A DNA stretch of 49,184 bases, from assembly GCA_943327315.2 (NCBI GenBank), contig CALPWQ020000004.1, forward strand, positions 1 through 49,184, read 5' to 3'. The position numbers were made by a program, and so were the translations under genes. Position 1 is the first letter of the stretch; every line of letters starts with the position of its first letter. The stretch is from Chitinophaga pinensis (GTDB lineage Bacteria; Bacteroidota; Bacteroidia; Flavobacteriales_D; Crocinitomicaceae). Below are positions 27,202 through 34,940 of this stretch, in pieces. The notes under the pieces were generated by a model. The model worked only from the letters and a program-made list of their open reading frames with translations. It had not been told where the DNA came from and searched no databases.

Positions 27202-28740
27202 TTAGTTTCTGATGATCTGAGCGGTAAATGGTTGACCGTTTACTGTCATTGAAACAAAGTAGATTCCCTTGCGCGCATCCGCACCAGATTCTGTTGTTCC
27301 GTCCCACTCAATGGTCAAGCCACTTGTTGCTAGTGTTTCTGTATTTTTCAACTGGCGGATTAACTTCCCTTGGTAATCGTAGATCGAAACTGATACCACA
27401 TCTCCTACTTTTGAATTCGCATAAACGATTTGCGTGGATGTGCTGAACGGATTCGGGAAGGTCATCAACGGACCCTGTTGCGCTGGAAGCAATTCATCGA
27501 TCGAAGCACTCATCAAGGCTTCCATGTCATAGTTCTCATCTCCAGCCTGGTAGACCATGTAGTGAAAGTATACGATGAACATTTCATCGGTCGTATTCAA
27601 TCCCGCTGTGACAGTAGCTCCTGTATTGTTGACATATTTCCCTGTTCCTTTGATGATGGTCCCAGGAGGTGTCTTTTGAATGTGTTTGAAGAAGTAGAAA
27701 TCTTGCCAGTGGAAATCCCAGTTAGGTATGTTGACATACTTCAGAGTATCCCCTGCAGGAGTAACACCAAAAGATTTAATTGTTTTTCCTAACAAGTGCA
27801 TGTGCGGGAAGGCTGACAATACAGAAATGGTAGGATAAGCCGCTGGCAAAGCATATTGCGCATTCACCGTAGTTGTTTGGTTGTTCGGTAAGGTGAAATT
27901 CCAATTTTCAATGATTGGATCTGCTGTGACTTGACGCACGCCAGTTGTTCCTAATGGATAAAAATGGAAAATGACTTTTGTGCTGTCGTATTGTCCATAG
28001 GTTCCTGATGGATAATGCATTCCAAAATAGACGTTTGATCCAGCTGCCATGTCAATTCCAAGTTTCATTGGAGCCGAAGATGGCAAGACCATTGGTGTTG
28101 CACCTGGTGTGTAACCCGTAATTAATTTCGTTGTGGAATTAGACGGACTTGCGCAATTGCCCCCAATACTATCTGTCACTTCTAATCCTGCAGGATCGAC
28201 ATAAATTAAGGCGTGGTGCACAATCTGACGGTTCCCAGGGACAATTTCAATGGCTCTAATCACTCGGTTTTGTGTCAGGCCCGAAGGCACTGAAAAACAC
28301 ACATAATCGTCATTCGTGGAAGTGGCCTTACTCATGTATGTTGGGATCTGAACTGTCAAATCGCCATTACCCAAAATCGTGCTTGACGTATAAACCGGCG
28401 CTGGAGGCGTGTTTGCAGCAATTCCTTCAGGAAATCCTGCTAAGATCCAATCCAAAATCAGTGTTTTCTCCACTGCGGTCAACGAACGGTCGTGCACATA
28501 TTGTTGGTAGTTGTTATCCGGAGGCCATGGGGGCATGTGTCCCTGATTCACAGCATCGTAAATCGCTGCCGACATTGGACTCACCTCGTTGTAGGACATA
28601 TACGAAGTAGGTGCAATCCCTCCGGTGTGGTGACATTTCGTGCATTTATTAAAAAATACCTGAGCGACATCATTGCTCCAGGTTTGACCAAAAGCGGAAA
28701 ATCCAGCCAAAAAGGAAACGAAAAGAAGTGCATTTTTCAT
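27202..28740 (-). CDS. Secreted haem c / PHM-like copper monooxygenase with T9SS sorting domain
   Basis: A 512-residue extracellular protein in four parts. Residues 1-19 form a signal peptide. A c-type haem segment has CTKCH (33-37) and a candidate axial Met in GHMPPWPPD (about 70). A region like the copper type II ascorbate-dependent monooxygenase (PHM) family follows, with His176-His177 (VHHALIY), His243 (GMHYP), His314/His316 (PHMHLL) and Met388 (TDEMFIVYF). The last about 85 residues (FPNPFSTSTQIV to AQIIRN) are a type A T9SS sorting domain. The ligand spacing resembles animal PHM (H107/H108/H172 and H242/H244/M314). It stands alone. It should oxidise an unknown C-H substrate outside the cell, with haem as an electron route (inference). 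Confidence 0.85.
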   Translation of the reverse strand: MKNALLFVSFLAGFSAFGQTWSNDVAQVFFNKCTKCHHTGGIAPTSYMSYNEVSPMSAAIYDAVNQGHMPPWPPDNNYQQYVHDRSLTAVEKTLILDWILAGFPEGIAANTPPAPVYTSSTILGNGDLTVQIPTYMSKATSTNDDYVCFSVPSGLTQNRVIRAIEIVPGNRQIVHHALIYVDPAGLEVTDSIGGNCASPSNSTTKLITGYTPGATPMVLPSSAPMKLGIDMAAGSNVYFGMHYPSGTYGQYDSTKVIFHFYPLGTTGVRQVTADPIIENWNFTLPNNQTTTVNAQYALPAAYPTISVLSAFPHMHLLGKTIKSFGVTPAGDTLKYVNIPNWDFHWQDFYFFKHIQKTPPGTIIKGTGKYVNNTGATVTAGLNTTDEMFIVYFHYMVYQAGDENYDMEALMSASIDELLPAQQGPLMTFPNPFSTSTQIVYANSKVGDVVSVSIYDYQGKLIRQLKNTETLATSGLTIEWDGTTESGADARKGIYFVSMTVNGQPFTAQIIRN

Positions 28741-30974: not shown

Positions 30975-32330
30975 TTAATTACAACGTGCTAAAATTTGCT
31001 CCATCACTTCCTCTGAATCCCAGCGCTCCTCGATGTTTTCCATCGCCATCACCTCATCCATAATCGCTGATTGCACCTGACCCTGTTTGTACGCCACACT
31101 GTAGCGAATTTCACTAAAGGTCACTTGCGAATACAAGGGCAACCACTTGTCTGGGTAACGGCCACTGAACTTTGCTTCGATTTTCTTCCGCAACAAAAAC
31201 TCTGGATCTGCCACATAGTCGCGCATCACATAATAGTTGTCCAAGGACAGGTCTTGCAAGGCATCCCCATCCGGTTTACGTTCGCGGCTGTATTCCTCAA
31301 AAATTGCAGGCCAGTCTTCGTGGTGCTTGGTCATCAATTCTGACAAAACGGTACAATCTTCAAACCCCGCATTCATTCCTTGTCCGTAGAATGGAACTGT
31401 AGCATGTGCGGCATCACCCATCAATGCGGTAACACCATGTGCCCAAGGGTAGCAACGTACAATGGCCAAGGCAGCTAGGGGGTGATCTTCCCATGCATCG
31501 GCAATATCCGGCATCATTTCGTAGAAATCTGGGAATGTTTTTTCGAAGAATGAATTGACAGCTTCGCGTGATGTGAGTTTGTCAAAGGCATTTTCACCAC
31601 CTTCGTGCGGCATGAATAAGGTACAGGTAAATGAACCATCTTCATTCGCCAAAGCAATCATCATAAAACGTCCACGTGGCCAAATATGCAAGGAATTTTT
31701 ATCCATGCGGTACGTACCGTCCGGATTTGCAGGCAGCAAAATTTCGCGGTATCCGTCAGCAATGTAGTTCTGGCTATAGTTAAAGCGACCAAGTTTCTGC
31801 ATCGATGAATAACGCACGGAAGAAAAGGCGCCATCCGCAGCAAAAACCAAATCTGCTTTGTGTTCAAATTCTTCTCCTGTCAGGCTGTTTGTTAAGTAAA
31901 CAATTCCATTATTGAGGTCAACCCTACGACATTCGTGGTTGTAATGGATCGTTGCTTTTCCGTGTTTTTCAGCAATGTCCATCATCGTAGCATTGATTTT
32001 CCCGCGAGAAACAGAGAAAATGGCTTCACCGTCTTTTCCATATTGCTGATAGGTCAACTTTCCTTCGAGGTCGTGCATCACACGTCCGTACATGGGGATG
32101 GCAATCTTGCGAATTTCATCGCCAACACCTACCGCATCGAGTGCTTTCCACCCGCGGTTTGAAAGGGCAAGGTTGATGGACTTCCCAGCAGATATTTCCG
32201 CTTTTCGAATGTCCCAACGGCGCTCATAAATCGTTACTTTATATCCTGCTTTAGATAGATAAACGGCCCAAAGGGATCCTACCAATCCTGCTCCTACGAT
32301 GACAACCTCTTTCATTGACTGATTTTCCAT
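30975..32330 (-). CDS. kmo: Kynurenine 3-monooxygenase
   Basis: FAD- and NADPH-dependent hydroxylase making 3-hydroxykynurenine from kynurenine, using oxygen. The reading starts with KEVVIVGAGLVGSLWAVYLS, the FAD-binding GxGxxG motif, then INLALSNRGWKALD, the DG motif VFAADGAFSSVR, and ALMGDAAHATVPFYGQGMNAG (the GD motif region). I annotate the ATG at 32330; the ATG at 32318 gives the usual MKxVVIVGAG start and lies 18 bases from the promoter box, so it is a real alternative. The downstream genes (outer-membrane protein, ArsC-like, EamA) probably share its transcript. A 23-base tandem repeat separates it from the esterase upstream. Confidence 0.94.
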   Translation of the reverse strand: MENQSMKEVVIVGAGLVGSLWAVYLSKAGYKVTIYERRWDIRKAEISAGKSINLALSNRGWKALDAVGVGDEIRKIAIPMYGRVMHDLEGKLTYQQYGKDGEAIFSVSRGKINATMMDIAEKHGKATIHYNHECRRVDLNNGIVYLTNSLTGEEFEHKADLVFAADGAFSSVRYSSMQKLGRFNYSQNYIADGYREILLPANPDGTYRMDKNSLHIWPRGRFMMIALANEDGSFTCTLFMPHEGGENAFDKLTSREAVNSFFEKTFPDFYEMMPDIADAWEDHPLAALAIVRCYPWAHGVTALMGDAAHATVPFYGQGMNAGFEDCTVLSELMTKHHEDWPAIFEEYSRERKPDGDALQDLSLDNYYVMRDYVADPEFLLRKKIEAKFSGRYPDKWLPLYSQVTFSEIRYSVAYKQGQVQSAIMDEVMAMENIEERWDSEEVMEQILARCN

Positions 32331-32336
32331 ATGTAA

Positions 32337-32344
32337 CAAAGGTA
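32337..32344 (-). promoter_or_regulatory. TACCTTTG promoter box for kmo
   Basis: Exact TAnnTTTG on the minus strand, 6 bases from the ATG at 32330 and 18 from the ATG at 32318. The latter spacing fits most other boxes in the window. Confidence 0.6.
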
Positions 32345-32374
32345 GTTAAATGATTGTTTTAGCACGCTGTATTT

Positions 32375-32446
32375 GTGACTTCGAGAACCTCAGCCACCAT
32401 ACTTCGAGAACCTCAGTCTTCATACTTCGAGAACCTCAGCAACCAT
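32375..32446. repeat. Three 23-base tandem repeats, locus B
   Basis: Units at 32378-32400, 32401-32423 and 32424-32446 each begin ACTTCGAGAACCTCAG, vary over four bases (CCAC, TCTT or CAAC) and end CAT. The first unit, with the three bases before it, forms the bulged hairpin of loci A and C (arms GTGACT/AGCCAC, inner GAG/CTC). The last unit ends on the first base of the esterase stop codon. Confidence 0.85.
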
Positions 32447-33396
32447 TAATGCAGCACAAGGCCGAAGTCAATCGCCACCTGCATGGCTGCCCAGAAATTC
32501 TGGTCTTTTGAGAACAAATTGTACTGTCCACCTTGACCTGGATTCGTCCCCGGGTCGACAGGAATCTGATGGCCTAAACCTGTAAATTGATACAACACAA
32601 CACGATTGGAATTGTCCGTCGAGCCCACGGATGTCCGTTTAATAAATGGATGCTCCTTCAGCAGGACTTCTTTTTCAGATGATGTATTTAGTTGTTTGAT
32701 TCCTTTCCATTGGTTATACAACATTCCTGCGCACTTTGGATATACGACGGCATCATCTGTTCCTTGATAGATATAGAGCGAAGGATAGGCAATGGAAGCA
32801 TTCGGATGAAGGTCCATCACCCGCTGTGTAAGTTGTTTTTCGGTGAGTTCTGGCTTGCCGTGCATTGCCTTCAATGCTTGACTAGGTTTCTCTGCCAAGC
32901 CATATGGTCCGCAAGCGAAGACAGCACCCGCCTTGAAACGGGTTGGGGTTAACGCCAATAGTGAAACACTCAGTTGTCCGCCAGCAGAAAAGCCAGTGAT
33001 GAAGATTTGGGCGGTATCGATGGAATAATGGCTGAGGCAATAAGACAGCATGTTCAAGATGCTCGCTGCTTCGCCATTCAAGGAGTCGATATCTTCTGGT
33101 CGAAACCAATTGAAACAGCGGTTTGGATTGTTGCTCATTTGCTGTTGAGGGGCCAACAAAAAGAAGTCATTTTCCTTTGCCAAGGCATCCCATCCAGAAA
33201 CGGAAATCGCCTCTTGTGCACTTTGCGTGCAGCCGTGTAAGACAAGGACTAGCGGTCTATTTTTATTCGAGGTCGGTTGAATGAAGCATTCTAGATTTCC
33301 CGGATTATTTCCAAACTCAAGCTCGGCCACTTCCGTCAGTTGCGCCGTCAGTTGAAACGCGTTAATTGCAACACTAAAAATAATCCAGTATTTCAT
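32446..33396 (-). CDS. Secreted PHB-depolymerase-type esterase
   Basis: A secreted alpha/beta-hydrolase of 316 residues in the PHB esterase/LpqC group. The signal peptide is MKYWIIFSVAINAFQLTAQ. The active-site set is visible in order: VLVLHGCTQSAQE (oxyanion region, typical of the group), FITGFSAGGQL (GxSxG nucleophile), IYQGTDDAVVYP (acid) and FTGLGHQIPVDPG (His). The natural substrate may be a polyester or a feruloyl or acetyl ester. The ATG at 33396 is used; a TTG one codon upstream is also open. It follows the 73-residue membrane protein after 3 bases and lies between kynU and kmo, but the signal peptide makes a role as kynurenine formamidase unlikely. Confidence 0.88.
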   Translation of the reverse strand: MKYWIIFSVAINAFQLTAQLTEVAELEFGNNPGNLECFIQPTSNKNRPLVLVLHGCTQSAQEAISVSGWDALAKENDFFLLAPQQQMSNNPNRCFNWFRPEDIDSLNGEAASILNMLSYCLSHYSIDTAQIFITGFSAGGQLSVSLLALTPTRFKAGAVFACGPYGLAEKPSQALKAMHGKPELTEKQLTQRVMDLHPNASIAYPSLYIYQGTDDAVVYPKCAGMLYNQWKGIKQLNTSSEKEVLLKEHPFIKRTSVGSTDNSNRVVLYQFTGLGHQIPVDPGTNPGQGGQYNLFSKDQNFWAAMQVAIDFGLVLH

Positions 33397-33399
33397 CAA

Positions 33400-33621
33400 T
33401 CACCGATTCTTCCAATACCGTGAATAGGGTGTTTGAAAGAAGGTATTTTGCTTCCGTTCTTTCAGTTTTTTCTTGTGAATGGCATTGCTCGCCCGCCAGA
33501 GGACGATTCCTCCGATCAATACCGCCACGGCTTGAATGGTCAAGTTGACGTAGGTTGTCGATTGGCTTAATTCACCCGAAAACTTTGCTTTAATCAGCTC
33601 TTGAATTGTCAATTCATCCAT
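33400..33621 (-). CDS. Small membrane protein (73 aa)
   Basis: A short, unrecognised protein with an acidic N-terminus (MDELTIQELIKAKFSGE), one membrane segment (about residues 27-42, TIQAVAVLIGGIVLWRA) and a strongly basic C-terminus (HKKKLKERKQNTFFQ). It lies 12 bases after kynU and 3 bases before the esterase gene, all on one strand, so the three look like a single operon. The clean topology and tight packing favour a real gene. No function can be given. Confidence 0.7.
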   Translation of the reverse strand: MDELTIQELIKAKFSGELSQSTTYVNLTIQAVAVLIGGIVLWRASNAIHKKKLKERKQNTFFQTPYSRYWKNR

Positions 33622-33633
33622 GATGTACTGTTT

Positions 33634-34914
33634 TTATTGTATCGCTTGCTCCAGCAGTTGTCCAAACCAATAGCAATCTTCGAAGGAGTTGTACAGGGGT
33701 GCAGGAGCCACACGAACGACATTTGGTTCGCGCCAATCGGCTACAACACCTAAGTCAGATAAGGCATCAAACAAGGCTTTCCCTTGACCCTTCGCCATAA
33801 TCGACAGCTGTGCGCCGCGCTTGGTTTTATCCCGTGGAGTAATCAATTCAAAGGTGCAACGGTCAGCATTTTTATTCGAAATATCTTCGATCACGAATTC
33901 CAAATACGCCGTCATAAGGTCACGCTTTTCGCCTATGCGTTCCATTCCCGCTTCCGCAAAAATTTCTAAGGAAGCCAAATGTGCGGCCATGCCTAGAATT
34001 GGTGCGTTGCTCAATTGCCATCCTTCGGCACCTCGCATCGGGATAAATCCTGGTTCCATTTGAAAACGCTTGTCCTTATCATATCCCCACCAGCCGGCAA
34101 AGCGCGGCAATTCAGGAGAAAAGGCATGGCGTTCATGGACAAACATGCCACTCACTCCGCCCGGAGATGAATTCAAATATTTATACCCACACCATGCAGC
34201 GAAGTCAACTCCCCAATCGTGAAGCTTAAGATTGATGTTTCCTGCGGCGTGTGCTAAATCGAATCCAACGATCGCTCCAACTTTGTGGCCTGCTTCGGTG
34301 ATGGTTTTCATATCGAACAACTGACCCGTGTAATAATTCACGCCGCCAATCATCACCAAGGCCAATTCGTCACCTAGTTCTTCAATCTTTGCTAAAATAT
34401 CTTCCTCACGAATCAATTGTTCACCTTCTCGTGGCGCCACTTCTACCAAATGTTCCGACAAATCCAATCCGTGAAATTTCACTTGGGATTCAAGGGCATA
34501 TTGGTCACTTGGAAAAGCCTTTGCCTCACAGAGAATCTTCGTTCTTTTTCCTGACGGGCGGTAAAACGAAACCATCAACAAGTGAAGATTTGTCGTTAAG
34601 GAATGTGTGATCACCACTTCAATAGGAAGTGCGCCCACCACATTTGCCGCCATTTCTGTGAGATTTTCGTGGTAGGAAAACCATGGTCGTTTCGCAAGAA
34701 AATGACCTTCAACACCAAACTTCGCCCATGCTTCCAATTCTTCTGCGATGTACTTTACGGTCGTTTTTGGTTGCAAGCCCAATGAGTTTCCCGTGAAATA
34801 GCGCACCGTTTTTTCATGAAAATCGGGAAAATAAAACTTACCTCGAAACTCTTTCAATGGATCTTGTTCATCCATTTGCTGCGCGTAATTCAGCGTGTTT
34901 TCAAACTGACTCAT
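33634..34914 (-). CDS. kynU: Kynureninase
   Basis: PLP-dependent hydrolase that cleaves 3-hydroxykynurenine or kynurenine to 3-hydroxyanthranilate or anthranilate plus alanine, in the cytosol. The 426-residue protein has VRYFTGNSLGLQPK (substrate-binding loop), FDLAHAAGNI (PLP Asp and partner residues) and AAWCGYKYLNSSPGGV with the PLP-binding Lys. Together with kmo it converts kynurenine to 3-hydroxyanthranilate. The start is the ATG at 34914, 18 bases from the promoter box TATCTTTG; the TTG at 34935 lies in the box. It heads an operon with the small membrane protein and the esterase and is divergent from hemL. Confidence 0.96.
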   Translation of the reverse strand: MSQFENTLNYAQQMDEQDPLKEFRGKFYFPDFHEKTVRYFTGNSLGLQPKTTVKYIAEELEAWAKFGVEGHFLAKRPWFSYHENLTEMAANVVGALPIEVVITHSLTTNLHLLMVSFYRPSGKRTKILCEAKAFPSDQYALESQVKFHGLDLSEHLVEVAPREGEQLIREEDILAKIEELGDELALVMIGGVNYYTGQLFDMKTITEAGHKVGAIVGFDLAHAAGNINLKLHDWGVDFAAWCGYKYLNSSPGGVSGMFVHERHAFSPELPRFAGWWGYDKDKRFQMEPGFIPMRGAEGWQLSNAPILGMAAHLASLEIFAEAGMERIGEKRDLMTAYLEFVIEDISNKNADRCTFELITPRDKTKRGAQLSIMAKGQGKALFDALSDLGVVADWREPNVVRVAPAPLYNSFEDCYWFGQLLEQAIQ

Positions 34915-34932
34915 AGGGAAAAATTTGCCTGC

Positions 34933-34940
34933 CAAAGATA
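34933..34940 (-). promoter_or_regulatory. TATCTTTG promoter box for kynU operon
   Basis: Exact TAnnTTTG on the minus strand, ending 18 bases before the ATG at 34914. It forms a divergent pair with the hemL box. Confidence 0.65.

Follow-up and report, generated by a model that had tools for sequence, protein, structure and literature searches.

PHM (peptidylglycine alpha-hydroxylating monooxygenase) and DBH (dopamine beta-hydroxylase), which animals use to make peptide hormones and noradrenaline, are the textbook examples of hydroxylases with two coppers. Electron delivery in these enzymes is ascorbate-dependent and is hard to split into steps. The window analysed here, a stretch of DNA of 49,184 nucleotides, contains a gene whose product is predicted to combine a copper core of this type with an N-terminal haem c domain and a C-terminal T9SS sorting domain. 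In a natural fusion of this kind the haem can be seen by spectroscopy, so that electron entry could be tracked directly; it would also establish surface chemistry in bacteria for this superfamily. On the broader reading discussed below, Bacteroidota would have their own counterpart of enzymes that have been investigated nearly exclusively in eukaryotes.

The gene is genuine and consists of a single 512-codon ORF that fills positions 27202–28740 on the minus strand, as given by the ORF list and the translation; these coordinates agree with the first-pass annotation. The features of the gene and its product are as follows.

27202..28740, minus strand: whole gene (512 aa) encoding a signal peptide, haem c domain, PHM/DBH-type copper core and T9SS sorting domain
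28684..28740, minus strand: signal peptide, residues ~1–19, judged by eye from the sequence
28396..28683, minus strand: putative haem c domain, residues ~20–115, with predicted helices at 21–32, 50–65 and 89–100 and weak cytochrome c matches
28630..28644, minus strand: CTKCH haem-attachment motif (C33/C36/H37), invariant in 53/53 and 36/36 sequences
28525..28536, minus strand: MPPW motif, residues 69–72, with M69 as candidate second axial ligand of the haem
27961..28371, minus strand: N-terminal copper domain, residues ~124–260, from a fold match and Pfam Cu2_monooxygen (E 9.3e-5, below cut-off)
28213..28218, minus strand: H175-H176, predicted CuH ligands (PHM H107/H108) by alignment
28015..28017, minus strand: H242, predicted CuH ligand (PHM H172) by alignment
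27538..27960, minus strand: C-terminal copper domain, residues ~261–401, from Pfam Cu2_monoox_C above cut-off and a fold match
27796..27804, minus strand: H313 and H315, predicted CuM ligands (PHM H242/H244) by alignment
27580..27582, minus strand: M387, predicted CuM ligand (PHM M314) by alignment
27205..27468, minus strand: T9SS type A sorting domain, residues ~425–512, from TIGR04183, Pfam and structure matches

The translation places the CTKCH motif at residues 33–37, where it had been reported previously. The copper-ligand numbers in the first-pass annotation are each one too high, the correct residues being H175, H176, H242, H313, H315 and M387. The ligand intervals it had compared with those of PHM (65 and 70) hold, at 67 residues from H175 to H242 and 72 from H315 to M387.

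The C-terminal half of the copper core exhibits a match to Pfam Cu2_monoox_C at 33.6 bits (cut-off 23, E 3.3e-8). An HMM search for the Cu2_monooxygen domains had been proposed as a check on the PHM-like assignment; it places the C-terminal domain above its cut-off, whereas the N-terminal domain, at 23.1 bits, is below the curated cut-off of 30 for Cu2_monooxygen. When the 53 members of an alignment built from the query and its relatives were each scanned singly with Pfam at E≤0.01, all 53 matched Cu2_monoox_C, 49 matched Cu2_monooxygen, 51 matched Por_Secre_tail and 33 matched Cytochrome_CBB3. A profile of the family searched against PDB sequences identified human DBH with an E-value of 6.4e-8. 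PHM was absent from the matches of this profile at E≤10 even though DBH was found, which weighs against the main reading given below. The single query protein gave no match to PDB sequences at E≤1, and a plasmid search gave no match.

Structural prediction of the query protein produced a model with a pLDDT of 81.4 and a pTM of 0.77. Foldseek analysis of this model identified DBH (2.3e-12) and PHM (approximately 1e-11), and among the matches listed by VIA-align were PHM (Z 22.3, rmsd 3.2, 258 residues aligned) and DBH (Z 20.1, rmsd 3.6, 267 residues). Superposition on PHM had likewise been proposed as a check, and the PHM-like copper core that the first-pass annotation had put forward now has good support from profile matches, the alignment, conserved ligands and the predicted fold. 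The core is predicted to be a PHM-type double jelly-roll with both copper ligand sets, and it resembles the PHM/DBH superfamily in general.

When the query is aligned jointly with rat PHM and human DBH, with numbering from the first His of the HH pair, H175/H176/H242 fall in the columns of PHM H107/H108/H172 and DBH H262/H263/H333, and H313/H315/M387 in those of PHM H242/H244/M314 and DBH H412/H414/M487. The ligand assignments of DBH, and those of PHM beyond the CuH site, are presumed here to be the accepted ones. For PHM, the three residues that bind CuH are given in PMC6123673. Q346 shares a column with PHM Q272 and DBH Q445. C148 and C196 align with PHM C81 and C131 and with DBH C232 and C283, and a C148–C196 disulphide is therefore possible. 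Among relatives of subfamily A, C196 is a Cys in 0/14 and C148 in 2/14, and neither is found in subfamily B.

The 53-sequence alignment comprises the query and 52 of 57 loci, which are 40 to 93% identical to the query and include four relatives above 90%; the loci left out were L046 (broken frame), L053 and L056 (partial), and L057 and L058 (match near the tail only). Eighty of the 512 query positions are invariant in this alignment. The query contains 16 Met residues, of which M69 and M387 are the sole invariant ones, and 13 His residues, of which the six ligand His (H37 and the five copper His) and H83 are invariant and the other six vary; all four Cys residues are also invariant. The six copper ligands are kept in 53/53 sequences, a count that is slightly biased since the loci were selected by a match to any of six peptide patterns, and two of these contain ligands. 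They are also kept, together with C33/C36/H37, in 36/36 relatives picked by Pfam and a family HMM with no motif (20 family and 16 wider-phylum proteins, with some family contigs overlapping the first set). Accordance with the PHM and DBH columns and this retention across relatives bear out the first-pass claim that all six ligands are in place, and two copper sites, His3 and His2Met, are predicted. Q346 is kept in 14/14 subfamily-A relatives and 0/8 of subfamily B; the relatives of both subfamilies were picked by copper motifs, so that HH, HxH and Met are kept in them by construction.

The haem c domain is assigned from its motif, conservation and weak profile scores. Pfam analysis of the query protein gave Cytochrome_CBB3 at 21.5 bits, below the cut-off of 27 (E 2.9e-4). 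Residues 1–126, when modelled separately (pLDDT 80.5), are predicted to form a signal helix followed by three helices, and CTKCH ends the first helix after the signal helix, as in a small cytochrome c. In the full model, confidence falls below 50 at residues 37–47 and 69–71. Foldseek analysis of the haem domain gave no significant match (best E 1.4), although 6 of the 18 matches were cytochromes c or proteins containing a cytochrome c domain, and the best Z among the matches listed by VIA was 2.9. The absence of haem from the model is a likely cause of these poor structure matches. A profile of the haem domain searched against PDB gave a CcoP subunit as its best match, at E 0.084. C33, C36, H37 and M69 are invariant in 53/53 sequences, M69 being the candidate second axial ligand. 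Within the 36 relatives, M69 is kept in 20/20 from the family and in 11/16 from the wider phylum; the second haem ligand is not uniform.

The C-terminal tail of the query matches TIGR04183 (T9SS type A sorting domain) at 36.7 bits with a cut-off of 23, and Pfam Por_Secre_tail at 28.9 bits with a cut-off of 27, upholding the T9SS sorting domain that had been read from the letters. VIA-align identified the tails of PorU, PorZ and mirolase as structural matches. The same genome encodes a PorU-type T9SS sortase (1125.8 bits, cut-off 420), and the tail and this sortase together support the surface or secreted location suggested earlier. A cytochrome c assembly protein is also encoded in the genome; its family also matches 9/14 control genomes.

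Cu2_monoox_C is found once in the query's own genome. With that genome included, the domain occurs in 67 of 120 genomes of the family (17/24 genera) and in 29 of 296 genomes of the phylum (21/140 genera), and it was found in 0/14 control genomes. The gene is also carried by a cultured relative, Fluviicola chungangensis (L031). The phylum loci examined for the haem motif leave out L072, which falls within the family and is tallied with it, as well as two of the 32 phylum-wide matches. A haem c motif (CxxCH, CX3CH or CX4CH) precedes the HH pair of the copper core in 27/27 untruncated phylum loci; 28 loci were examined, L091 is cut by a contig end, and the 27 are made up of 22 loci and five from a later motif-free count. 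The five loci first missed by the motif do have the haem motif, HH, HAH and DEM. Because 27/27 untruncated phylum relatives carry the haem c motif before the copper core, the predicted haem–copper fusion is the usual form in Bacteroidota and no peculiarity of this window.

Earlier haem scans for CxxCH alone missed the CX3CH and CX4CH forms. CX4CH (CATSGCH, CAISGCH) replaces CxxCH in L070, L074, L075, L079, L084, L085, L088 and L095, and L094 has CX3CH (CAGACH) instead. The eight loci of subfamily B exhibit CX4CH in 7/8 and Met in the M69 column in 1/8, and Q346 is absent from them. In 13 of 23 measured phylum loci the protein is extended at its C-terminus by 105 to 126 residues, and in the other 10 it ends 8 to 24 residues past the CuM Met. 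The extension of L098, the sole one tested, gave no T9SS-tail match at 0.01. Five records (L015, L021, L027, L029 and L033) are titled Chryseobacterium gleum or Candidatus Kuenenia, with a gene that is 55–58% like that of the window. These titles look misassigned, as the gene likeness is that seen in Fluviicola and Crocinitomicaceae records.

Within the window, an S41 peptidase gene is convergent with the haem-PHM gene and lies 3 bases from its end, and an EamA transporter gene lies upstream with a gap of 49 bases. The first-pass statement that no partner genes flank the gene fits the window, and the neighbours common to relatives look housekeeping. A partner role was considered and rejected for the S41 peptidase (22/55 loci), dCMP deaminase (21/55), a response regulator (17) and PurH (13), which look like housekeeping synteny; counts among the 55 loci are lower bounds, as many of the contigs are short. 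The upstream EamA transporter, an ArsC-like protein, a 295-aa protein and a KMO-like enzyme recur in 5 to 7 of the 55 loci, also as lower bounds, and the placement of these four genes is the same only in the two to four closest relatives. An Esterase_PHB-type hydrolase (32446–33399, minus strand; PF10503, 2.2e-14) is encoded on the strand of the haem-PHM gene, four genes upstream of EamA; judged by eye, its N-terminus is signal-like. This esterase has a kynureninase gene (PF22580) on one side and a gene for what looks by eye like a KMO-like FAD enzyme on the other, at 30975–34935, minus strand, and kynurenine breakdown is possible from the genes of this region.

A redoxin/thioredoxin-like gene overlaps or abuts the haem-PHM gene in L099, L106, L115, L117 and L128, though some overlaps may stem from start-codon choice, and a redoxin is fused to the haem-PHM in L114. 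The redoxin is therefore adjacent or fused in at least 6/40 wider loci, from six families, with the Pfam assignment drawn from L099, L114 and L115 only. With the L115 redoxin as query, four ORFs were matched in all 98 sources, and 4/4 adjoin a haem-PHM gene. The redoxin may help with copper loading or thiol redox.

A BD-FAE esterase gene is directly upstream of the haem-PHM gene in 12 of the 98 sources, which include some contigs fetched twice, and in 8 of these FadL and GDSL genes are present too. The series of FadL-like, GDSL-like, BD-FAE esterase and haem-PHM genes on one strand was observed in L018, L023, L028, L033, L037, L038, L047 and L056, of which L056 has a partial haem-PHM; the Pfam assignments of the cluster and a T9SS tail on the esterase are from L018 only. 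In L018, L023, L037, L038 and L047, for which the rows are complete, the cluster genes overlap or have gaps of ≤47 bases. By the positions listed for the 120-genome family sample, adjacency to the esterase is limited to the genus g22, where it is found in 8 of 10 genomes with the gene as against 0 of 59 others. Across the same 120 genomes, co-occurrence of gene and esterase was not significant at E≤1e-50 (both 39, esterase only 24, gene only 30, neither 27; p 0.36) or with close homologues (25, 10, 44 and 41 in the same order; p 0.067). A general coupling to the esterase was rejected, since adjacency occurs in one genus and co-occurrence is not significant. The genome of the window encodes a 64% identical esterase on another contig, beside a GDSL-like fragment at the contig end. 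The one-genus pattern is a weak lead to a hydrophobic or ester substrate and no more.

PHM R240, N316 and Y318 presumably form a clamp on the peptide carboxylate. The joint alignment places F311, I389 and Y391 of the query in these columns, and peptide amidation is unlikely because two of the three clamp residues are replaced. In all 36 relatives the first clamp position lacks Arg and the second lacks Asn; DBH likewise has neither at the two positions (Q410, V489). Pfam identified no PAL lyase domain in the protein or in 11 scanned neighbours within the window. PHM/DBH-like chemistry may apply, and the clamp columns suggest that the substrate is probably other than a glycine-extended peptide. 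There is no pointer to the substrate within the window, and the best lead, albeit a weak one, is towards a hydrophobic or ester-linked compound.

The main reading, which is considered rather probable, is that the gene encodes a copper monooxygenase of the PHM/DBH superfamily that is exported and has its own electron-entry module, a mono-haem c domain. Haem c would be attached in the periplasm, the T9SS would export the protein to the cell surface or medium, and an external or envelope reductant would reduce the haem. The haem would then hand single electrons to CuH and CuM, and, as happens in PHM and DBH, O2 at CuM would hydroxylate a C–H bond of a substrate that sits between the two copper sites. 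The use of haem in place of ascorbate as the donor, as put forward in the first-pass annotation, is plausible because the fusion is constant among relatives. The sortase and the cytochrome c assembly protein of the genome and the redoxin neighbours in relatives also speak for this reading, whereas the sub-cut-off profile scores and insignificant structure matches of the haem domain, and its varying second ligand, speak against it. A c-type cytochrome can reduce a bacterial LPMO, a copper monooxygenase of another family, and the principle thus works in another kind of copper monooxygenase according to PMC8981238. A broader reading is tentative: a large Bacteroidota family of self-reducing PHM/DBH enzymes, in which the fused haem c would replace ascorbate, feed both coppers extracellularly and support hydroxylation of hydrophobic or ester-linked cell-surface material.

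Three other explanations bear on the role of the haem and of the coppers. The protein could be a PHM/DBH-type hydroxylase in which a small diffusible reductant feeds the copper directly and the haem serves for structure, O2 or redox sensing, or anchoring. Animal PHM is not known to use any haem, and the varying second haem ligand would suit such a role. Animal PHM also runs on ascorbate, according to PMC6123673 and PMC6529398. A haem c motif in 27/27 phylum loci and C33/C36/H37/M69 in 53/53 sequences are nevertheless more than a dispensable domain needs, making this explanation unlikely. It is very unlikely that electrons flow in reverse, with the copper core oxidising a substrate and the haem exporting the electrons, so that the protein would be a surface dehydrogenase or oxidase and no monooxygenase. 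A fused c-type haem can serve either electron direction and oxygen incorporation by the query is a prediction, but both copper sites carry the PHM/DBH ligand set, and known members with this set do O2-dependent hydroxylation. Copper capture or handling by a non-catalytic copper-binding surface protein would fit the redoxin neighbours, which could be copper chaperones, and the context of the distant relative L102. In that contig (L102:6020–10186), a subfamily-B haem-PHM gene shares its strand with genes for an MbnP protein (PF20243, 1.8e-56) and for a MauG-type protein with two haems (PF03150). The enzyme-like copper sites of 36/36 relatives argue against such a role, as does the presence of Q346 throughout subfamily A, though not in subfamily B, and copper handling is accordingly judged quite improbable.

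The family occurs widely and Pfam annotates it readily, yet its bacterial branch seems little noticed; no description of a haem-fused bacterial PHM/DBH was found in the open-access titles and abstract starts among the matches listed. The exported monooxygenase proposed here shares with PHM, which is part of PAM, the predicted double jelly-roll copper core, the six copper ligands, Q272 and Y318. It differs in the addition of a putative haem c domain and a T9SS tail, in the replacement of R240 and N316 by F311 and I389, and in having no PAL domain in the protein. DBH is the best solved-structure match by profile (6.4e-8) and by Foldseek; it has all six ligands and, like the query, neither Arg nor Asn in the first two clamp columns. 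At the N-terminus DBH carries a DOMON domain, whereas the query has the predicted haem c domain there and is directed to bacterial export. LPMOs are one-copper histidine-brace enzymes with another fold. LPMOs with cytochrome partners resemble the query in the principle that a secreted copper oxygenase would receive electrons from a haem domain; in PMC8981238 the cytochrome domain is on a separate protein, Cbp2D, whereas in the query the predicted haem c domain is fused to the copper core.
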